Below, piece by piece: positions 4,848 through 15,105 of a DNA stretch of 64,000 nucleotides (the first letter of the stretch is position 1; every line of letters starts with the position of its first letter). The stretch is from Streptomyces sp. LHD-70 (GTDB taxonomy: Bacteria > Actinomycetota > Actinomycetes > Streptomycetales > Streptomycetaceae), in assembly GCF_031157275.1 (NCBI RefSeq), contig NZ_JAVIFW010000001.1:558001-622000 (forward strand), written 5' to 3'. The notes under the pieces were generated by a model, which was not told where the DNA came from, did not search any database, and saw only the letters and a program-made list of their open reading frames with translations. The position numbers and the translations under genes were made by a program.

Positions 4848-5552
4848 TCACACCGAACCCGGCAACGGCGCCAGCGCGACCAGCCGGTCGACCAGGTCCG
4901 CGAAAGGCCCGTCCGACGGCTCGGCGGCGAGGATGCCGCGAAGGACGGACGCCATCTCCTCGTCGTACGCCGCACTGACCGCAGCCAGCGCAGCGAAGTC
5001 GTGGACCAGCTGGAGTTCGAGCTCGGCGCGCGGCACCCGGCGGCCGTCCAGCCACAGCAGTGCCGTGGACTCCGCGAGCGACACCCAGGAGCGCACGACG
5101 AGTTGGAGGCGGGCGGACGGCGCGGTGATGCCGAGGTGCGCGAGGATCTGCTCGTACGCGGCCTGCCGGACCGAGTCGATCAGGGCGTTGGTGGTCGACG
5201 AACCGACCGCGGGGCCGCCGCGCATCAGGGCCGAGAAGCCCGGGCCGTGCTCGTCGACGAAGTCGAAGAAGCGGCCCATCACCCGCAACAGGCGGGCGCC
5301 GAGGGGGCCTTCGCGCGGCTCCTCGAAACGCTCGGCGAGGTCTTCCGCGGCCTTGCGCAGCGCCGCTTCGTACAGGCTGCGCTTGCCCGGGAAGTAGTGG
5401 TACACCAGCGGGCGGGAAATTCCCGCCGCACCGGCTATCTCGTCGATGGAGACCTCGTCGGGGGAGCGGTGGCTGAACAGTTCGAGCGCCACGGCGATCA
5501 ACTGCTCCCGCCGCTCCTCGACTCCCATCCTGCGGCGCACCCCGGTCGTCAT
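4848..5552 (-). CDS. TetR/AcrR-family transcriptional regulator
   Basis: A 234-residue TetR-type regulator. The N-terminal DNA-binding domain spans about residues 12-60, with VSIDEIAGAAGISRPLVYHY as the helix-turn-helix and the typical FPGKRSLYEAAL that follows. The remaining ~170 residues form the all-helical ligand/dimer domain and are not informative about the effector. It is the last gene of a same-strand run, hydrolase (6685-7611), ferredoxin reductase (5607-6683), this gene, with a 54-base gap before it. It therefore most likely controls that operon; a 5-4-5 inverted repeat immediately upstream of the first gene (7621-7634) is a candidate operator. The ATG at 5552 has a weak AGGGTG about 8 bases upstream. 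Confidence 0.9.
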   Translation of the reverse strand: MTTGVRRRMGVEERREQLIAVALELFSHRSPDEVSIDEIAGAAGISRPLVYHYFPGKRSLYEAALRKAAEDLAERFEEPREGPLGARLLRVMGRFFDFVDEHGPGFSALMRGGPAVGSSTTNALIDSVRQAAYEQILAHLGITAPSARLQLVVRSWVSLAESTALLWLDGRRVPRAELELQLVHDFAALAAVSAAYDEEMASVLRGILAAEPSDGPFADLVDRLVALAPLPGSV

Positions 5553-5606: not shown

Positions 5607-6683
5607 TCACAGGTCCAGGACCAGCCTCCCGCCGCGCGCGCGGGACACGCAGATCAGCATCGAGTCGCGCCGCTCCTCGTCCGTGAGCAGCTCGTCGCGG
5701 TGCTCGACCTCGCCCGCCACGACCCTCAGTCGGCAGGTGCCGCAGAAGCCCTGCTCGCAGGAGTACGCGACGTTCGGCAGCTGCTCGCGGACTGCGGCGA
5801 GGACCGTCTCGTCGGCCGGGACGGCCACCGTGGTGCCGCTGCGCCGCAGTTCGACCTCGAAGGCCGTGTTGCCCTCGGTGGCCGCGGCGGGCGTGAACCG
5901 TTCCAGGTGCAGGGTGCTGCCGTGCGGGAGCGCCGCCGCCACCGCGTCCATCAGGCCCTCGGGCCCGCAGCAGTACACGGCCGCGGCCTGCGGCGCCCCG
6001 TCGAAGAGCGCGGCCGCGTCGGGCCGGCCGGACTCGTCCTCGGCGATCACCGTCACCCGGCCCCGGCGGCTGCGGCCGAGCCGCTCCACCTCGTCCAGGA
6101 ACGGCATCGAGGCGCGGGAGCGGCCCGCGTACACCAACTGCCACTGCGCGCCGGACAGTTCGGCCGCGCGCAGCATCGGCAGGACCGGGGTGATGCCGAT
6201 GCCGCCGGCCACGAAGACGTACGCGTGCGCGGGCTCCAGCGGGAAGCGGTTGCGCGGGCCGCGCACCTCGATCTCGGTGCCCTCGGCCAGCTTCTCGTGC
6301 ACCTCGCGCGAGCCGCCGCGGCCGTCCTCGATCAGCCGGGTCGCCACGGTGTACGCGGTGCGGTCCGCGGGGTCGCCGCAGAGCGAGTACTGCCGGACCG
6401 CCCCGGACGGCAGCACCAGGTCCAGGTGGGCGCCCGGCTCCCAGGCAGGCAGCGGGCCCGATCCCGAGTCGCGCGGCGCAAGGCGCAGCCGGACCACGCC
6501 GTCGGCGACCTCGGTGCGGGCCGCGACCCGCAGACGCTGGGCGCGCCCGCGCGGCCGGCCCGAGATCGGGGTCTGAAGGGCGGGCATCGGCCACAGGGGT
6601 GCGGTCCCCATACGGCTGCGCACGGCCCGCCGTACGAGCAGCGCGGCGCCCGCGACGGCGGCGACGGTGCGGATCCTGGGCAT
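5607..6683 (-). CDS. Ferredoxin reductase-type flavoprotein with C-terminal plant-type [2Fe-2S] domain
   Basis: A 358-residue single-chain electron-transfer protein of the phthalate dioxygenase reductase-like family. A flavin-binding beta-barrel comes first (RQYSLCGDPAD, the flavin-contact motif), then an NAD(P)-binding half (FVAGGIGITPVLPML and YCCGPEGLMDAV), then a ferredoxin domain with the cluster ligands CEQGFCGTC plus a final Cys in MLICVSR. It would pass electrons from NAD(P)H to a partner oxygenase. The stop codon of the upstream hydrolase gene (6685-7611) sits two bases before this ATG, so the two are translationally coupled; a GAAGGG lies 11 bases upstream. A GTG at 6695 is an alternative start but has no ribosome site. 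The immediate partner is probably the adjacent hydrolase. Confidence 0.92.
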   Translation of the reverse strand: MPRIRTVAAVAGAALLVRRAVRSRMGTAPLWPMPALQTPISGRPRGRAQRLRVAARTEVADGVVRLRLAPRDSGSGPLPAWEPGAHLDLVLPSGAVRQYSLCGDPADRTAYTVATRLIEDGRGGSREVHEKLAEGTEIEVRGPRNRFPLEPAHAYVFVAGGIGITPVLPMLRAAELSGAQWQLVYAGRSRASMPFLDEVERLGRSRRGRVTVIAEDESGRPDAAALFDGAPQAAAVYCCGPEGLMDAVAAALPHGSTLHLERFTPAAATEGNTAFEVELRRSGTTVAVPADETVLAAVREQLPNVAYSCEQGFCGTCRLRVVAGEVEHRDELLTDEERRDSMLICVSRARGGRLVLDL

Positions 6684-6684
6684 C

Positions 6685-7611
6685 TCAGGCGGCACCCTTC
6701 TCGCGGGCCTCGGCGGCGACGGCGGCGGGCGACGACGCCAGGTAGGCGACCGCCTGCGCCGTGGAACCCTCGTGCGAGGGGTGGTAGGCGCGGTTCAGAT
6801 ACCGGGGGATGGAGCGGACCATCGCGCCGGTCGTCGGCAGCACGCCCTGCCGGCCCTTGGCGAAGAACTCCTTGAACGTGGCGCGGCCGTCGACCAGCGT
6901 CGGGTCGTTCTCCATGAAGAACCGCGCCCCGCGCTGCCACAGGAAGACGAGCGCGGCGAACGCGACTCCCCAGGTCCGCACCCGGCGCGCGTACGAGCCG
7001 TCCACGTGCATGAACAGGTCGAACGCCACCGAGCGGTGCTCGACCTCCTCCGCGCCGTGCCAGCGCAGCAGGTCCAGCATCGTCGGGTCGGCGCCGCGCC
7101 GGTCCAGCTCGTCGGCGTTCAGGACCCAGTCGCCGAGGAACGCGGTGTAGTGCTCGATCGCCGCGATCGTCGCGATCCGCTCCATCAGCCACCACTTGCG
7201 GGCCTTGCCGGGCGGCAGCGTGCGGTCGCCGAGCAGCTTCTCGAAGAACCAGTCGATCTGCGCGGTGTACGGGGTCGGGTCCAGGCCCTGCTCACGCAGG
7301 TGCGGCAGGACCTCGTCGTGAGCCTGGGAGTGCATGGCCTCCTGCCCGATGAACCCGATCACGTCGGCGCGCAGCTGCTCGTCCTCGATGTACGGCAGGA
7401 CCTGCTTGTAGACGTGCACGAACCAGCGCTCGCCCGCGGGCAGCAGGAGGTGCAGGACGTTGATGGTGTGCGTCGTGAACGGGTCGCCGGGCAGCCAGTG
7501 GAGCGGCGTCTCCTCCCAGGCGAAGGAGACCTTGCGTGCCTTCAGCGCCGTCCACTCGGAGGCGATGGGCTGCGGCGCCCGGTCGAACCGGGCCTGCGGC
7601 GTATTAGACAT
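6685..7611 (-). CDS. Predicted metal-dependent hydrolase (PF10118-type, diiron-like helical protein)
   Basis: A 308-residue, mostly helical protein of the family labelled predicted metal-dependent hydrolase. Several carboxylate/histidine pairs typical of a ferritin-like metal site are visible: QEAMHSQAHDE (near residues 87-97), IAAIEHYTAFLGD (near 142-154) and HGAEEVEHRSVAFD (near 180-193). The spacing of E..H pairs suggests a diiron centre and therefore an oxygenase or desaturase-like reaction rather than hydrolysis. That would fit the ferredoxin reductase encoded immediately downstream with overlapping signals. The ATG at 7611 was chosen because homology begins there; a longer open frame upstream is antisense to the next gene. 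The substrate is unknown; a lipid is a guess based on similar TetR-controlled operons. Confidence 0.85.
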   Translation of the reverse strand: MSNTPQARFDRAPQPIASEWTALKARKVSFAWEETPLHWLPGDPFTTHTINVLHLLLPAGERWFVHVYKQVLPYIEDEQLRADVIGFIGQEAMHSQAHDEVLPHLREQGLDPTPYTAQIDWFFEKLLGDRTLPPGKARKWWLMERIATIAAIEHYTAFLGDWVLNADELDRRGADPTMLDLLRWHGAEEVEHRSVAFDLFMHVDGSYARRVRTWGVAFAALVFLWQRGARFFMENDPTLVDGRATFKEFFAKGRQGVLPTTGAMVRSIPRYLNRAYHPSHEGSTAQAVAYLASSPAAVAAEAREKGAA

Positions 7612-7727: not shown

Positions 7728-9683
7728 TCAGCGCAGCGCCGACACCTCCGTACCGTCCGCGAGGCGCCCCCTCAGCTGCGCCCGCGCGCCCTTGCGGGCC
7801 GGTGCCGCGAGGGTGTTGCCGCGGGCCGAGCCCTGCGCGCCGCCCGTCACCCGCACCGACGCCACGTCCTTGCTGCCCGCCGCCAGTACGTGCCAATGGC
7901 CCGCCCGCGACTTCCACAGCACCCCGGCGAGCACCCGCGGCTCGCGCGCCCCGCAGGCCGGTGAGTCCTGCGCCCGCGCCGCGATCGCCCCGGTGTCCTT
8001 GCCCGGCGCCTGGAACTGCGCGAGCACCCTGCTGCCCGCTCCCCGCCAGGTCTCCGCCCGCGTGCACACCCAGGTCGCCGTGCCGTTCCCCTCGGGCAGC
8101 CGCTGTGCCGCGTACGCCCAGGAGTTCACCGACCGCACCCCGTTCGAGCGGACCGCCCCGAGCAGACAGGCCGTACGCGCCCAACTCGCCCGCGCCGCCT
8201 GCCCGTCCACCTCGCCCGGGGACTGAGGGCGCCCGGACGTGAGGTGGGCCGGGGTGAGCTCGCCGAGGTCGGTCACGAGCCGGGTGCCACCTGCTCCTGG
8301 ACCGTCCTCGCGCAGTTCGAGCGCGGCGACCTCCGTGCAGTCCGTCGACGGCGCCACGGCGGCCAGGGGCGCCGTCACGCCGTCCGCCGACCGGTCCAAC
8401 TCCCGTGCGGGCGCGCCCGGTTCGCGCAGGTCGCGGACGGCGACGGTACGCACCCACGGCGCCGTCAGATACCGCACCTCACCCTTGCCCCGGCCCACGA
8501 CCACCGCCCCCGACGTGGCCTGCGCGGCGCCGTCGACCCGCGCGAAGTCGAGGGCCGCGCCACCGCCCGCCCCGGACCGCGGCTCGGCGTACCGCACCAG
8601 GCGCAGGCCGTCGTGCAGGACCACCACGCGGGCCCGGCCCACCTCGCCCGCGTACAGCAGTTGCGCCGGTCCCGGCGGGGCGCCCGAGGCGGTGCCGGGG
8701 GTCGCCGAGACCTGCACGGACGGGCCCGGGCGCGCCCACACGGCGAGCGCCCGGCCGAGCAGCTCGCGGTCGCCGGTGAGGGAGCCGCGGGCCGGCCACA
8801 CGGAGAAGTCGGTGCGCGCCGAGCGCCGCCACTCGCCCGCCCCGACGCGCGTCAACTCCTCCGGGTCCAGGGCCGCTTCGGCCGCCGGGTTGCGTGCGTA
8901 CGCGGGGGCCGCGGGGGTGCCGGGCGCCAGGCCGTCGCCCGGCAGGGCGAGGAGCGTGCCGCAGACCAGGGCGGCCGCCGTGGCGGCGAGCGCGGCGCGG
9001 CCGTGCTGCCTGCGCCGCATCAGGTCCGGCGGCCTGGCCTGGAGGGAGCACGGGTCGAACTCGGGGGAGTCGAGCAGCTCGTACGAGGCGGCCACACCGT
9101 CCGCCTCCGCGAGCGCCGCATGCGGGTCCTCGACCCCGGCGCCCTCCAGGATCCTGCGCACTTCGGCGTCCGGCAGCCGCTCCAGGCCGCGCAGCACGAA
9201 CGCGGCGCGCGCCGGGCCGCCGAGCGCGGAGAGCCGCTGGTCGAGGGCGAGTTCATCGGCGCCGCCGGAGCGCGGGAACAGCCGCAGGCCCCACACCTGC
9301 GGCAGCAGCGGCGGCAGTTGCGCGCGCCGCGGCCAGGCCCGCCGCCGCAGCGGAAGCCCCGCCTCCAGGGCGCTCCGCAGCACCCGCAGGCGCACATAGC
9401 CGTACCCGGGGTCGCCGCCCGGCCTGCCCGCCCCGCGCTGCGCCGGGACCATGGCGCGTTCCACGGTCGTACGGGCGCGGGGCAGGGCGCGCTGGGTGAG
9501 CCAGTGCGCGGTCAGCACCCGCCGGTTGCGCCCGAGCGACGGCGGCAGGACGAGGTAGCCGAGCCGCACGAGTCGCGGATAGTGCTCGACGAGCGCGGCC
9601 TCGGCCTGCTCCACGTCGACGACGGGAGCGGGCCCGGGGGACGGGGGCGGGGAGGTGCGCGTGGCGGCGTCCGAAGAACTCAC
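7728..9683 (-). CDS. Membrane-anchored protein with sigma-factor-like cytoplasmic region
   Basis: A 651-residue protein I do not recognise as a named family. Residues 22-75 (EAALVEHYPRLVRLGYLVLP) resemble region 2 of ECF sigma factors. Residues 143-200 (LSALGGPARAAFVLRGLERL, then PDAEVRRILEGAG) resemble region 4, but basic and proline-rich insertions separate them and the core promoter-binding segments look degenerate. A single hydrophobic segment at about 229-247 follows a basic stretch (MRRRQHGR). The remaining ~400 residues would be outside the cell and contain Ala/Gly-rich beta-type sequence with a few Cys. The topology is therefore sigma-like part inside, one membrane helix, large exported domain. 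It may be an anti-sigma or sensor derivative rather than an active sigma factor. The start is GTG at 9683 with a weak ribosome site; a nearby later start is possible. It stands alone between the hydrolase operon and the GH89 gene. Confidence 0.75.
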   Translation of the reverse strand: MSSSDAATRTSPPPSPGPAPVVDVEQAEAALVEHYPRLVRLGYLVLPPSLGRNRRVLTAHWLTQRALPRARTTVERAMVPAQRGAGRPGGDPGYGYVRLRVLRSALEAGLPLRRRAWPRRAQLPPLLPQVWGLRLFPRSGGADELALDQRLSALGGPARAAFVLRGLERLPDAEVRRILEGAGVEDPHAALAEADGVAASYELLDSPEFDPCSLQARPPDLMRRRQHGRAALAATAAALVCGTLLALPGDGLAPGTPAAPAYARNPAAEAALDPEELTRVGAGEWRRSARTDFSVWPARGSLTGDRELLGRALAVWARPGPSVQVSATPGTASGAPPGPAQLLYAGEVGRARVVVLHDGLRLVRYAEPRSGAGGGAALDFARVDGAAQATSGAVVVGRGKGEVRYLTAPWVRTVAVRDLREPGAPARELDRSADGVTAPLAAVAPSTDCTEVAALELREDGPGAGGTRLVTDLGELTPAHLTSGRPQSPGEVDGQAARASWARTACLLGAVRSNGVRSVNSWAYAAQRLPEGNGTATWVCTRAETWRGAGSRVLAQFQAPGKDTGAIAARAQDSPACGAREPRVLAGVLWKSRAGHWHVLAAGSKDVASVRVTGGAQGSARGNTLAAPARKGARAQLRGRLADGTEVSALR

Positions 9684-9786
9684 GTTCAGCAGAACGAGCG
9701 AATCGTCGGATGGTCACTCGAACAGGCCTCAGAGGAGGGAGAGTTGACTGCTCCGCGCCTCCGCGCCTCCGCCGTACGCCCTGGCC

Positions 9787-12700
9787 TCACCCCAGCGCGA
9801 ACCCGCTGAACTCCACCGTCCCCCGGGCCCCGCTGCCCCCGTGCGCGGCCGACATGAAGAAGCCGACGTCCTGGCTCGCCGCCGCACCCCCGACCGGCAC
9901 CTCGGCGACCGTCCGCCAGCTCGCCCCGTCGTCCGTCGAGCACTCCCCGCGGAACGTGTCCCCGGTCCGGCTCAGACGGAGCAGTACCGGGGCCTTGATT
10001 CCGGTGATCCGCTTGTACGTGTCCAGGGTGCCGTCGCCGTTCGTGTCGTAGGAGAGCACCACCCCGTTCGCGGGCGTCACCGACAGGTTCACGAAACCCG
10101 GGGAGCCGGGCGTGGAAAGGGAGTTGCGGGCGATCACACCCGCCCGCGCCCACGGACCCGTAGCGGCCTGCGCGTCCACCCGCACCGTCACCGCGACCCC
10201 GTCCAGCAGGGCGCCCTCGCGGTACGCGGCGCCGAACTCGCTGGTGCCCTTCCACAGGTCCTGGCCGCCGCCGTTGACCGCGAACCGCTCGCCGACCTGC
10301 CCGAACACGGCCGCGCTGTTGGTGTACGTCCGCCACGCCTCGTCCAGGGGACCGGCCACATACAGGCTGTCCTCGACGACCGTCGTGACCCGGTCCTCGT
10401 CCTTCGGGCCGTACCGCACGGACAGTTCGTACGGCAGCGGCTTCAGCGGCGAGGTCAGCGGCTCGTCCGGGGCCTTCGCGCGCCAGGTCACCGCGCCCTC
10501 GCCGGCCGGGGGCACCGACCTCAGCGACGTGCCGTCCTCCGGTTCGGCGTCCAGGCCGTTGAGGGTGAAGTCCACCCGGCCGGTGGCGCGCAGCCCGTTG
10601 ACGTTGGTGAAAACCGCCCGCACGCGCGCGTGGCCACCGGGCGGGAACGCGGACGGCTCGGCGGAGACGGCGACCTTGCCCTGATAGGGGGCCCGGGCCA
10701 GGACGTCGTACGCCTGCTTCGCCGTGCGGTACGCGTCGTTCGGCGGGCGCAGCGGATACACCTTCCGCTCCCGCGTCCAGGGCTCCTCGATCGCGTACCA
10801 GTCGAACGCCTTCGGCTCCCGCCCCGCCGCGAGCGCGTCCTCCAGCTCGTCCAGGTACGCCGTCCACTGCGGCAGGTGGAAGTCGCCGATCAGGCCGTGC
10901 CAGTCCCGGTTGGCGTAGTTGGCGAGGCGCCCGCCGTCGGCGGTGGCCCGGTCCGCCCAGGTGGTGATCAACACCCGTGCCGTGCGCTCCAGTTCCGCCG
11001 CTTCGGCGGGTGTCGACGCCATCCGCTTCGCGTCCTCCAGCCACGGCCCGAGCAGGAACGCCCGGTGCGCTCCCGTGACCTCCTCGCTCAGCCGCATCAG
11101 CCTCAGCCACAGACGCGCGAGGGTTCGGAACGTCTCCCGGTCCTTCCTCCCGTACGCCGCCCGCAGCTGCGGCAGCAACTGCCAGGACCGGTTGGCGAGC
11201 GCCTGCCGGGCCAGATCCGTGAGGTCGTAGCGGTACGCGTCCGAGCGGCGCAGCGAGTCCCGCACCCCGAGCAGCGCCGCGAAGGCCCGGTCGAAGCCGC
11301 CGGGCGGGAACGCGGGGGTGTGCGTCGCGTAGTACGTACCGGAGTTGGCGCTCAGGCTCGGGCGCGCCGCGAAGATCGAGTCGTGCGGCCGGCCGTCCTT
11401 GCTGGTGATCCGGTACGCGGTCTCGCGCAGCGCCGCCATCGCCGCGCGGGCCTGCCCGTCCTGCCCGCCGTAGCGCAGATCGGCGTACGCACGGAACCAC
11501 TCGGCGCGGTCCACGGCCTCCTCGCGCCAGGCCAGCTCCGTGAACAGTTCGAGCGCCGCCGGGTCGCGTTCGGCGGCCTCCGGCATGTACGCGGTGCCCG
11601 CGAGCGTCGAGCCCGGTCTGTCCCGCCAGACCGTGAACCGCTCCGTCCACATATGGGTCTTCGCGCCGATGGTGGTGCGGCCGCCGAAGTTGGGGATCGT
11701 GCCGAACGCGTACGGCGCGCCGCCCCAGTCCTTCTCCCGGTCGGTGACCGTCTCCAGGTCGGACAGGCCGTCCACGACCAGGAGCTGCTTCTTGTCCAGG
11801 GCGTCGATCACGTCGCGCCGCGGGTTGGCCTGCCAGCCGAGGATCGTCCACAGCGCCCGGGGGCGTGCGGTGTGCAGCGCCCGCTCCACGGCGCGCGCCG
11901 CCTCCGGCACCGGCACGTCGCCCGGGTCGCCGCCCTCGTGCAGCAGGTCCATCTTGAACAGGTCGATCTCGCCGAACAGTTCGGCCTGGTGCCGATAGAA
12001 CGCGGCCGCGACCTCGGCGAACGGCTCGGTGCGCGGATCGAGCCAGTCCGGCCGCCGCAGTCCGTTCCAGTCGCCCTGCGGGACGGTACGGGCGCCCGGG
12101 TTGCGCTCGGCGAAGCCGTCCGGGACCGTCCCGAAGTAGCCGGGCATGACCGGCTTCATGCCGAGCGCGCGCAGCCGGTCCGCGATCCTCCGGCCCAACT
12201 CGACGCGCCGCTCGATCAGTTCAGGGCTGAGCGGACCGCCGTACGCGCTCATGTTCTGCAGCAGCCACCACGGCTGGTGCGAGGGCGCGGGCAGCCAGGT
12301 GCGGGCCTCGGTGTCGGAGTAGCCGAAGTCCTGCAGGAGGCGGTGGTAGACGCCCTCCTGACCTGCGGTGACGAGCACTTCGTTGCAGCCGTGCAGCGCC
12401 AGCACGTCGATCATGCGCTCCCAGCGGGGCCAGTCCGCGTACGGGGCGGTGTAGCCGTCGTGGGTGTCGTTGAAGACGAAGCGGTGCGGCACCGTCGCTC
12501 TGCGGTGGAGCGGCCGGTCCGGCCCCGGGAGCCGCTCGGGCAGCTCCAGTTGGCTGCCCGACCAGGAGATATGGGCGCCGCACACATACTTCAGATACCA
12601 GTGCACGCCGGTGAGCAGCGCCAGCGGCCCGGTGCCCGCGACGGCGATCCGGCCGGTGGACCCACTGACCCTGAACCCCTCGCCGGAGTCGCGGAGTTGG

Positions 12701-12903
12701 TCGAGCCGGAACTGGTCCGCGTGCTCGGGCAGCAGCCGGTTGAGCGCGGCGCGCACGGGATCCGTATCGAGGGCGGGGCCCTGCGTGGGCCGACCCGATG
12801 CGTGGCTCGGGATGGCGTGGGCCGGGACGGTCGTGCCGAGGACGGTGCCGAGGCCGACGGCTCCGGCCGTCCCGATGACTCTGCGGCGGGACGGGTCAGT
12901 CAT
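9787..12903 (-). CDS. Secreted alpha-N-acetylglucosaminidase (GH89, NAGLU family) with C-terminal accessory domains
   Basis: A 1038-residue enzyme. The N-terminus (SRRRVIGTAGAVGLGTVLG, then AHA) is a twin-arginine-type signal peptide. Residues ~50-130 form the NAGLU N-terminal domain (GPLALLTGVHWYLKYVCGAH) and the long TIM-barrel part includes WPRWERMIDVLALHGCNEVL and KMDLLHEGG. A helical NAGLU C-terminal domain then runs to ~730 (TYYATHTPAFPPGGFDRAF, WHGLIGDFHLPQW). The last ~300 residues add beta-rich domains, ending with a laminin-G/concanavalin-like module (ARAGVIARNSL, GFVNLSVTPANGVVLSYD). It should release terminal alpha-linked GlcNAc from glycans outside the cell. The ATG at 12903 has a purine-rich GAGGGGGG about 7 bases upstream. 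Length exceeds human NAGLU by the extra C-terminal modules. It is monocistronic. Confidence 0.93.
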   Translation of the reverse strand: MTDPSRRRVIGTAGAVGLGTVLGTTVPAHAIPSHASGRPTQGPALDTDPVRAALNRLLPEHADQFRLDQLRDSGEGFRVSGSTGRIAVAGTGPLALLTGVHWYLKYVCGAHISWSGSQLELPERLPGPDRPLHRRATVPHRFVFNDTHDGYTAPYADWPRWERMIDVLALHGCNEVLVTAGQEGVYHRLLQDFGYSDTEARTWLPAPSHQPWWLLQNMSAYGGPLSPELIERRVELGRRIADRLRALGMKPVMPGYFGTVPDGFAERNPGARTVPQGDWNGLRRPDWLDPRTEPFAEVAAAFYRHQAELFGEIDLFKMDLLHEGGDPGDVPVPEAARAVERALHTARPRALWTILGWQANPRRDVIDALDKKQLLVVDGLSDLETVTDREKDWGGAPYAFGTIPNFGGRTTIGAKTHMWTERFTVWRDRPGSTLAGTAYMPEAAERDPAALELFTELAWREEAVDRAEWFRAYADLRYGGQDGQARAAMAALRETAYRITSKDGRPHDSIFAARPSLSANSGTYYATHTPAFPPGGFDRAFAALLGVRDSLRRSDAYRYDLTDLARQALANRSWQLLPQLRAAYGRKDRETFRTLARLWLRLMRLSEEVTGAHRAFLLGPWLEDAKRMASTPAEAAELERTARVLITTWADRATADGGRLANYANRDWHGLIGDFHLPQWTAYLDELEDALAAGREPKAFDWYAIEEPWTRERKVYPLRPPNDAYRTAKQAYDVLARAPYQGKVAVSAEPSAFPPGGHARVRAVFTNVNGLRATGRVDFTLNGLDAEPEDGTSLRSVPPAGEGAVTWRAKAPDEPLTSPLKPLPYELSVRYGPKDEDRVTTVVEDSLYVAGPLDEAWRTYTNSAAVFGQVGERFAVNGGGQDLWKGTSEFGAAYREGALLDGVAVTVRVDAQAATGPWARAGVIARNSLSTPGSPGFVNLSVTPANGVVLSYDTNGDGTLDTYKRITGIKAPVLLRLSRTGDTFRGECSTDDGASWRTVAEVPVGGAAASQDVGFFMSAAHGGSGARGTVEFSGFALG

Positions 12904-13017
12904 GTGGTGCCCCCCTCTGTCGTCTGCTGCGGCGCACGCTAACCGGACGGTCGACGGTGCTCAACGGTGCTTGCGGAGCTGGCGCGTTCGTGTCGGCCCA
13001 AGGGATGGGAGAGGCGC

Positions 13018-13449
13018 ATGAAGCGTGTCCTGCTGGTGGTCGTCGCCGTGCTCGTTGTCGCGGGATGTGGGTCCGGCGCCGACGAGGCCGGGGTGGTCGT
13101 GACCGGCACGTCTGGCCTGGAGCCGCTCGCGGCGGCAGCAGGGTGCAAGCCGGTCGTACGTGCGGAAAGCCGCGATCTCCGCCAGGCCAACTGCCGTAGT
13201 GGCAAAGCCCGTTACGTGCTCGCGGCCTTCCGCACCGACCGTGGCCAGAGCGAGTGGCTGGACGCCGCGAACGACTACGGCGGCAGCTATCTCGTCGGAC
13301 GCCGGTGGATCGCGGTCGGCGAGCGGAGTGTGCTCGTGGAGCTGCGCGGCCGGCTCGGCGGGACCGTGGTGACGTCCTCGCACCACTCGGGGAACAGCGG
13401 TGGTGGGGGGAGGGAGGAGGAACACCATGCGGGCCACGGCACGAACTGA
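13018..13449 (+). CDS. Small lipoprotein of unknown function
   Basis: A 143-residue protein starting MKRVLLVVVAVLVVAGC, a clear lipoprotein signal with lipobox VAGC, so it should be anchored to the outer face of the membrane through Cys17. Two further Cys (AAGCKP and QANCRS) could form a disulfide. The core, ending ERSVLVELRGRLGGTVV, looks like a small alpha/beta domain. The tail is Gly- and His-rich (HHSGNSGGGG, EEEHHAGHG). The ATG at 13018 is preceded by GGGAGAGG at good spacing; an upstream ATG-like start at 12967 would break the signal peptide. Divergent from the GH89 gene, with ~115 bases between. No function can be assigned. Confidence 0.75.
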   Translation: MKRVLLVVVAVLVVAGCGSGADEAGVVVTGTSGLEPLAAAAGCKPVVRAESRDLRQANCRSGKARYVLAAFRTDRGQSEWLDAANDYGGSYLVGRRWIAVGERSVLVELRGRLGGTVVTSSHHSGNSGGGGREEEHHAGHGTN

Positions 13450-13530: not shown

Positions 13531-15039
13531 TCACGTACAGCGGTCGCCGCTGTTGATGCAGCGCACCATCCGGTCCATGAGCTCTTCGTCGAAGACGTTG
13601 ATGAAGTCGCCGTGGTCGGTGATCGGTTTGTGCAGTTGCTCGGGGGAGGAGTCGACGGCGAAGTTCCGCTCCGGCGCCACGTCGTACACGATGCGCTGCA
13701 CGAGCTGCGGCACGGCCTGGAACCCTTGCGGGCAGCGGCCCTGCTCGTCGGTGAAGGCCACGTGGGTGCGGTGGTTGGCGCTGTCGGTGTTCTGGCCGTC
13801 CCAGCAGCTCTGGAAGCGGAACGACCGGACGACGTCGCTGCCGTCGGGGCACAGCGGGTACTTGTCCGCCAGCTGACGGTCCTCGAATCCGGTGCAGCTC
13901 CAGGACGCGTTGGCGTTGGCGTCGCCGTTGGTGAAGGCCTTGGCGTCGCCGGTGATCACCCGCAGGAACCTGGGCATCGCGGTGACCTCGCCGACCGGGC
14001 TGCCCTCGAACTTCAGGCTCACCTCGACCGGCGTCTGGATCTCCCCGACGTTCTGGTCGTTGCCGCCGCCGTCGGCCCCCGCGTCCTCCTCGTCCTGACC
14101 GTTCTGCACCCGCAGCACCGGCCAGTAGTACGTGGAGCGGTCGCCCTGGTCGCGGCAGCTGGTGTCGCCGTTCGCGAGGTCCTCGTCACCGGCGAAGGCG
14201 TCGTTGGCCTGGTTGCCGACGTAGTCGTGCATGTGGTGCGCGCCGTTGCTCACGCCGGGGGCCGCGATGACGTTGTCCGGGTTGCGGTTGCCGTTCTCGT
14301 TCGTGCCGCAGTCCGTCGTGAACGTGCCGCGGGATGCGCCTTGTTGCTCGCGCGGGAGGTTGACGTTCGGCTCGACCGTACGGATGTCGACGAAGTCGTC
14401 GTCCACGGGGCCGTTCCCGGCTTGCCCGCCCTGGCCGCCTTGGCCGCCCTGGTCGCCCTGCCCGCCTTGGTCCTGGCCGTCCTGGTCTTGATCATCCGGG
14501 TCTTGACTGTCCTGGTTCTGGCCGTCTTCCCCTGGTTCTTGTCCTCCGTCTCCTTCCTGCCCCTCCGGTCGGCCGTCCTCGTCGGCGGCGCGGAGGGTGC
14601 ACGGGGCCAGGCTGTCGAGGTTCTCCGGTGCGCGGGCGCCGTTCTCCTCGATCGCGGCCACGATGCCGCCGATGGACTCGCGGCGCTGCTGCTCCAGCGG
14701 GCCCAACAGCTCGGCGGGATCCTCACCGGCCTGCTGGCGCTCGGCGAGCTGCGCGTACGCCTCGGTGATCTGGCTGTCCAGGCCGGCCAGTCGGTTGTCG
14801 ACCTCCTGGCGTGCGGTCTGCGGCACCTCCCTCAGTTCGTCGCCCACGTCGGGGCAGTCGATGGTGGTCATGGCGGCGGGCTGCCCGGCCCCGGCGTCGC
14901 GTTGCTCGCTGCTGCCGCTCTCGCCGGCTGAGGCGTAGACATTCACCACAGCAAGGCCGCCGCCGCCGAGTATCAGGGCCGTGGCGGCGGCGATCGCCCG
15001 GCCTGCCAGCGTCGATCGTTTTCGTGATGTGCGTCCCAT
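13531..15039 (-). CDS. Secreted DUF1996 protein
   Basis: A 502-residue exported protein. A basic N-terminus (GRTSRKRS) and a hydrophobic segment ([20 protein letters not shown]) form a signal or anchor. Residues ~50-165 are predicted helical, including a coiled-coil-like stretch ([20 protein letters not shown]). A low-complexity Gln/Asp/Gly linker of ~50 residues follows, and then the DUF1996 domain, recognised by [23 protein letters not shown], the SW-C pattern [11 protein letters not shown] and [12 protein letters not shown]1996 is found in secreted actinomycete and fungal proteins whose activity is undefined. The ATG at 15039 is chosen because the signal starts there; the extra upstream frame covers a direct repeat (15070-15105). 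The linker DNA is itself repetitive and may vary between strains. Confidence 0.88.
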
Positions 15040-15069
15040 GCGTTGACGTACGCAACAGGAGCCCCCCGT

Positions 15070-15105
15070 GTTCAACTCCCGGTTCAACTCCCGGTTCAAC
15101 TCACG
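15070..15105 (+). repeat. Three tandem 12-base repeats between DUF1996 and epimerase genes
   Basis: GTTCAACTCCCG occurs at 15070-15081 and 15082-15093, and with one change at 15094-15105. It lies 15 bases beyond the stop codon of the epimerase gene (minus strand, stop 15121-15123). It could be a slippage product or a multi-site operator for the DUF1996 gene; the sequence gives no way to decide. Confidence 0.8.

Follow-up and report, generated by a model that had tools for sequence, protein, structure and literature searches.

The gene at positions 7728–9683 of the window, by which we mean the whole stretch of 64,000 nt from Streptomyces sp. LHD-70 analyzed here, raises the question of what a domain resembling a sigma factor does when it is attached to the membrane. 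An initial annotation, made from the sequence alone, had described an inner domain with regions resembling sigma regions 2 and 4, joined to one membrane helix and an outer domain of about 400 residues. It had offered three possible roles for the protein, namely a decoy, an anti-sigma partner or a released transcription factor.

We delineated the layout of the protein from its reading frame and its relatives. The coding sequence and all its parts mentioned below lie on the minus strand; it begins with a GTG start codon and is free of stop codons through 651 residues. A variable N-terminal tail (residues 1–21) precedes the sigma-like cytoplasmic domain (residues 24–200), which consists of a sigma2-like part (residues ~24–110; 9354–9614) and a sigma4-like part (residues ~142–200; 9084–9260). 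Next follows a juxtamembrane motif (residues 206–227, SPEFDPCSLQARPxDLMRRRQH; 9003–9068), recognized by identity and column counts, and then the membrane helix (residues 230–248; 8940–8996). This helix is the sole hydrophobic segment of the window protein, with a KD19 value of 1.93 and a best value of 0.87 elsewhere, and about 400 residues lie beyond it, which bears out the single helix and the large outer domain of the initial annotation. The outer beta-rich domain itself spans residues 281–651 (7731–8843).

Residues were counted column by column in 172 distinct relatives, which derive from a collection of 177 from which two duplicate places had already been omitted. At the position of the membrane helix, KD19 reaches at least 1.6 in 171 of these relatives. 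The four cysteines of the outer domain (Cys 449, 506, 540 and 577) are each found in 172/172, and the juxtamembrane C212 is found in 168/172. N-terminal of the helix lies an arginine stretch that is nearly as constant (R223 in 170, R224 in all 172 and R225 in 170 relatives). An Arg-rich stretch before the helix and invariant cysteines after it fit a topology in which the N-terminal domain would be inside and the Cys-containing domain outside.

The sigma likeness of the inner domain is not visible when the window protein is searched alone, as no match was obtained in Pfam (E up to 1), NCBIfam (E up to 10) or PDB (E up to 10). Within its own genome, the window locus is also absent among the listed matches of Sigma70_r2 (91 of 91 candidates scored) and of Sigma70_r4_2 (150 of 306 candidates scored). 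Ten of 33 diverse family members match Sigma70_r4_2 in Pfam at E ≤ 1 (best 1.5e-4) and two match PhyR_sigma-like (best 0.0094), the window protein being in neither group. A stronger signal came from comparing profiles. By hhalign, the profile of residues 24–226 aligned to a set of 25 ECFs from this genome with a probability of 95.8% and a score of 59.4; nine chosen seeds had recruited the set, and of the 35 proteins left after a span filter we retained the 25 with fewer than 230 residues. For comparison, none of 100 column shuffles scored above 17.7. The reversed profile scored 12.7, and aligning the outer domain to the same ECFs gave 10.9, while one half of the ECFs aligned to the other half with a score of 264. 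Most of the signal is carried by region 4, which alone reached 90.7%, and region 2 alone gave 32%. The sigma-model profile search proposed in the initial annotation thus failed for the window protein itself and succeeded for part of its family and in the profile comparison.

Searches with the family profile point in the same direction. Against solved structures, it yielded two marginal matches, 3t0y_A (E 0.064), which the fold-search listing gives as a PhyR-NepR complex, and a photosystem subunit (E 0.76). In whole-genome searches, it also reaches true sigma genes (in G407 with E 6.6e-7, locus L286, and in G674 with 3.7e-5, locus L288), whose proteins belong to the SigE family according to NCBIfam (TIGR02983). 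The sequence comparisons thus identify the cytoplasmic domain as a homolog of ECF sigma factors. The usual annotation masks this likeness, since none of the three databases returns anything for the sequence alone and two plasmid relatives are labeled hypothetical protein.

The initial annotation had made its proposal depend on a sigma-like fold being predicted for residues 20–210. AlphaFold2 modeled residues 20–228 with a pLDDT of 81.2 and a pTM of 0.82, using an alignment of 81 sequences, all close relatives, and the model resembles sigma factors and PhyR. Foldseek matches of the inner domain were weak (best E 0.74); the top six were sigma factors or PhyR, and unrelated proteins ranked lower. 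When 132 chains chosen by Foldseek were aligned with VIA-align, all 21 entries shown were again sigma factors or PhyR, led by SigG1 (Z 9.1, rmsd 4.2, 146 residues aligned), SigW with RsiW (Z 8.9, rmsd 3.7, 132 aligned) and PhyR with NepR (4qic; Z 8.4, rmsd 3.4, 118 aligned), whereas the lower rows had Z values of 2–3.4, two of them with an rmsd near 28. Because Z values below about 13 can be commonplace among helical proteins, we judged the sigma fold from the agreement of fold and sequence and not from Z alone. The inner domain is predicted to keep the two-domain ECF sigma fold, with hhalign, the AlphaFold2 helices and VIA-align all placing the sigma2-like part, and region-4 alignments and family Sigma70_r4_2 matches placing the sigma4-like part. 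The claim of an inner region resembling sigma 2 and 4 therefore stands, its region 2 being weak when taken alone.

The outer domain (modeled as residues 251–651) is beta-rich, with a pLDDT of 89.3 and a pTM of 0.88. Its best Foldseek matches were big unrelated beta proteins with query TM-scores near 0.12–0.15, and the best VIA-align result had a Z of 5.0 with an rmsd of 20, the remaining rows having large rmsd values or covering fewer than 90 residues. As neither program gave a clear match, we assigned no fold to this domain.

A sigma fold does not make a sigma factor, and the residues on both working faces of the inner domain depart from those of ECF sigma factors. We compared the region-2.2-like helix (residues 57–70, AHxLxQRALPR; 9474–9515) with 23 ECFs of the same genome, two of the 25 having been dropped for gaps; the equivalence of residues was taken from the profile alignment, in which region 2 alone is weak (32%). 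At the position of the region-2.2 Asp, an acid is present in 23/23 ECFs and in 0/172 relatives, which have Ala (108), Ser (36), Arg (12) or other residues. Gln64 is retained in 170/172, and the residue following it is Arg in 164/172, whereas 18/23 ECFs have Asp or Glu there. Over these 14 residues, the net charge averages +2.03 in the 172 relatives (minimum +1) versus −2.78 in the ECFs (maximum 0). The recognition-helix segment (residues 183–198, GVxDPxAALxEADxV; 9090–9137) is altered in the opposite direction: counted over 16 residues beginning at the sigma4-turn Gly, the mean net charge is −3.41 (n = 172, −9 to +3) versus +2.40 in the ECFs (n = 25, 0 to 5), with overlapping ranges, and Lys and Arg number 0.71 per 16 residues versus 3.08.

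In sigma70, residues 403, 406, 407 and 409 of region 2.2 are described as touching the beta′ coiled coil, and substitutions there may merely weaken core binding (PMC8321222). For this reason, we infer a loss of RNA polymerase binding from the changed residues and do not state it as a fact. Of the features of a functional ECF sigma factor, the fold and homology of sigma2 and sigma4 are present, and the acidic region 2.2 and the basic recognition helix of region 4.2 are absent. Going by these residues, the window protein does not resemble a functioning sigma factor and presumably does not start transcription.

The family is widespread in the genus. A match at E ≤ 0.001 was found in 188 of 199 sampled Streptomyces genomes, four of them weaker than 1e-25, where a match may represent a paralogue. 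At family level, 108 of 150 genomes from 13 of 17 genera were positive, and at class level 71 of 394 genomes passed E 1e-3 with the family profile, some through true sigma factors or marginal matches. The closest relative found is that of Streptomyces sp. B-S-A12, with 96% identity in the window protein. One paralogue exists in the genome of LHD-70 (G000:C7:290092–292008; loci L073 and L290); it is 47% identical, lies in a different neighborhood and matches TIGR02983 at E 0.0084, under the cut-off of that family.

More distant relatives vary in what is attached to the sigma-like module. Family f17 has the same layout in 533–584 residues (L270–L274 and L276–L278; the reading of L275 is split over two frames). 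The actinomycete family f13 includes short forms of 148–182 amino acids without a membrane helix (L281–L283; L279 and L280 are alike inside longer frames) and forms of 278–313 amino acids with a helix and a short charged tail (two in L284, L285 and L289). Scanning L281 and L284 returned no Pfam or NCBIfam name and weak matches only, those of L284 being to PhyR models. The sigma-like module thus occurs in f13 separately from the helix and outer domain, and the architecture is modular.

Substitution patterns show that the window protein is under purifying selection and is not decaying. Nine pairs of relatives, some of them not independent of one another, gave dN/dS values of 0.10–0.32 for the sigma-like domain. 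These were lower than in the outer domain in six of eight computable pairs, one of the nine estimates having been stopped by an ambiguous base; L159/L164 and L177/L185 showed the reverse. Identity of the N-terminal domain exceeded that of the outer domain in seven of the nine pairs and equaled it in one. Across 80 relatives, the mean identity to the window protein was 0.74 for sigma2, 0.72 for sigma4 and 0.63 for the outer domain. The juxtamembrane motif reached 0.93, the highest value among six stretches compared.

The gene is flanked on one side by an alpha-N-acetylglucosaminidase gene (9787–12903, minus strand), which is near in 12 of the 80 relatives, followed by genes for a small putative lipoprotein (12967–13449; 43/80) and a DUF1996 protein (13531–15099; 67/80). 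On the opposite flank lie, all on the minus strand, a Metal_hydrol gene (6685–7590), a ferredoxin-type reductase gene (5607–6695) and a gene for a TetR-type regulator (4848–5552). The latter is the most constant neighbor, present in 76 of 80 relatives with a mean identity of 83%. Other recurrent clusters among the 80 loci are tautomerase-like (57), TPR (53), histidine kinase (50), Metal_hydrol (42), SpoIIE-type phosphatase (42), pullulanase (40) and response regulator (24); these names were taken from one example each, and the counts rest on gene calling that misses or misframes some genes. The SpoIIE-type phosphatase (PF07228) lies within about 5 kb of the gene in its 42 relatives (for example L133:11167–11919). 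Phosphatases of this type act in partner-switch circuits elsewhere.

We looked specifically for sigma and anti-sigma genes in these neighborhoods. None of the recurrent clusters at the 80 loci belongs to a sigma or known anti-sigma family, and Pfam scans of eight recurrent examples and ten neighbors of paralogues or distant members identified no partner. A six-frame scan of 202 loci, which include some places twice and three loci that are true sigma genes, and many of which have flanks of only about 1.5–2 kb, placed a sigma-type frame close to a member of the family just three times: near L205, which is among the 80 named loci, near L270 at about 2 kb, and at the divergent paralogue L087/L291, which is 45% identical. 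At L291, the family frame (8974–10938, minus strand) and the sigma frame (11077–11772, plus strand) are divergent and about 0.1 kb apart, and the sigma frame resembles the SigE family, under its cut-off. The paralogue loci L290 and L292 have no such adjoining sigma frame. Elsewhere in the genome of LHD-70, NepR gave no match among 78 candidates scored, with a positive Caulobacter control, and zf-HC2 gave at least seven matches (150 of 195 candidates scored), which are candidate anti-sigma factors, none at the window locus. The same genome holds two other sigma-type frames with hydrophobic helices, one (L127; C12:45112–45540) in which a helix and then a proline-rich tail come after the ECF sigma frame, the other (L239; C14:201129–201776) an ECF52-like frame that combines sigma region 2, zf-HC2 and a helix in 666 residues.

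Among known systems, PhyR of the Alphaproteobacteria is the closest in kind. It is described as folding correctly like an ECF while its promoter and RNA polymerase regions are degenerate, and as titrating an anti-sigma factor (PMC8103513). PhyR, which stands outside our charge comparison, shares the degenerate sigma-like fold with the window protein (PMC8103513) and ranks near the top of the fold comparison (4qic, Z 8.4), besides the marginal profile match to 3t0y (E 0.064). However, PhyR is a response regulator with a C-terminal receiver, whereas the window protein has a membrane helix and a beta-rich outer domain without a Pfam match, and NepR, the partner of PhyR, is absent from this genome by our search. 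The ECF52, ECF48 and ECF53 groups, with SCO4117, share an N-terminal sigma-type domain, a membrane region, a long extracytoplasmic extension and their occurrence in Actinobacteria, but the literature presents them as zinc-finger-containing sigma factors (PMC5826349, PMC8999054), while the window protein lacks a detectable zinc finger and has lost the contact residues. The nearest true sigma relatives seen are of the SigE family (TIGR02983), in which the family profile reaches L286 and L288; these proteins of 171–178 amino acids have an AED-LVQ type region 2.2 and a TVKS-type recognition helix, both missing from the window protein.

We therefore favor, with a probability of roughly 0.45, the interpretation of the window protein as a membrane-tethered pseudo-sigma factor that acts through a protein partner of the sigma circuitry. 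Since the residues needed to run RNA polymerase are lost, an outside signal is probably relayed by binding such a partner rather than by reading genes, and because PhyR shows that a degenerate ECF fold can serve as an anti-sigma decoy, the signal could enter a sigma circuit by partner binding or release. The outer domain would sense the state of the envelope or the extracellular space, the signal would cross via the membrane helix and the juxtamembrane motif and alter the availability of the pseudo-sigma domain, and this domain would then bind or free its partner, as in a PhyR-type partner switch driven across the membrane. As first choice, the partner would be an anti-sigma factor, whose capture through sigma mimicry would free a true sigma factor; an anti-sigma factor bound by a PhyR-like decoy and a sigma factor are both possible. 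Class I anti-sigma factors are described as binding regions 2.1/2.2 and 4.2 (PMC7406223). With the 2.2 and 4.2 faces inverted in charge, one would not expect the window protein to be taken by an ordinary anti-sigma factor for its own sigma factor, and the partner may instead be dedicated to this protein, or else be a true sigma factor of complementary charge. The lack of a sigma or recognized anti-sigma gene among the recurrent neighbors and the absence of NepR from the genome also weigh against the favored interpretation. The divergent sigma gene beside the L087/L291 paralogue is a lead towards a sigma-factor partner, and we treat it as that alone. Of the roles offered initially, a decoy and a partner that binds a sigma factor are possible, whereas the charge inversion throughout the 172 relatives argues against the released transcription factor, which appears unlikely.

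Three other explanations have to be weighed against the favored one. The protein could be a sigma factor turned to the opposite use, that is, an anti-sigma factor descended from a sigma factor within a wider actinomycete pseudo-sigma family, whose inverted faces would keep a true ECF sigma factor or a dedicated partner bound at the membrane and release it when an outside signal reaches the outer domain. Membrane-bound anti-sigma factors share this topology of a domain in the cytoplasm, a single helix and a portion outside. In charge, the basic 2.2 helix and the acidic sigma4 segment complement those of true ECFs, and the SigE-like frame lies divergently at about 0.1 kb from one paralogue. Yet that adjacency is seen at a single paralogue, with two isolated cases elsewhere, charge complementarity by itself is weak evidence, and we know of no anti-sigma factor with a sigma fold. 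The window protein has no Pfam or NCBIfam match to a known anti-sigma domain, which says little either way given the diversity of such domains. We consider this explanation doubtful, both for the window protein and as an account of the wider family. The remodeled faces count against a fusion, as in ECF52, ECF48 and ECF53, in which a true ECF sigma factor carries its membrane regulator within the same protein and is released by proteolysis. The layout does resemble that described for the ECF52 protein SCO4117, with its membrane region and outer extension (PMC5826349, PMC8999054), but the region-2.2 acids are missing in 172/172 relatives, the recognition segment is acidic on average and no zinc finger was matched in the window protein or among the families listed for 33 members. 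Moreover, the window locus is absent from the listed Sigma70 matches of its genome, whereas the listing does include the 666-residue frame that joins sigma region 2 to zf-HC2. A fused working sigma factor seems quite improbable.

The same remodeling could also mean that a cell-envelope protein has put the sigma-like fold to some other, structural or scaffolding use, with no link to a sigma circuit. Nothing on either working face would then tie the protein to known sigma partners, and its recurrent neighbors are envelope, metabolic and signaling genes together with the TetR regulator. Against this stand the higher conservation of the N-terminal domain (0.72–0.74 versus 0.63 for the outer domain in the 80 relatives) and the survival of the module elsewhere as a short stand-alone protein, both of which suggest a specific cytoplasmic partner and make a reused fold unlikely in our view.

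In titles and the first parts of abstracts of the open-licence literature, we found no description of a membrane-bound pseudo-sigma protein in actinomycetes; the “sigma-like protein” that appears in a paper on ArgR is another protein, AfsS. ECF sigma factors are reported to contribute to development and antibiotic production in Streptomyces, SCO4117 being an example (PMC5826349). If the window protein is indeed a membrane-tethered pseudo-sigma factor, it would represent a second, probably independent case of sigma mimicry after PhyR, built into a single-pass membrane protein of Streptomyces.
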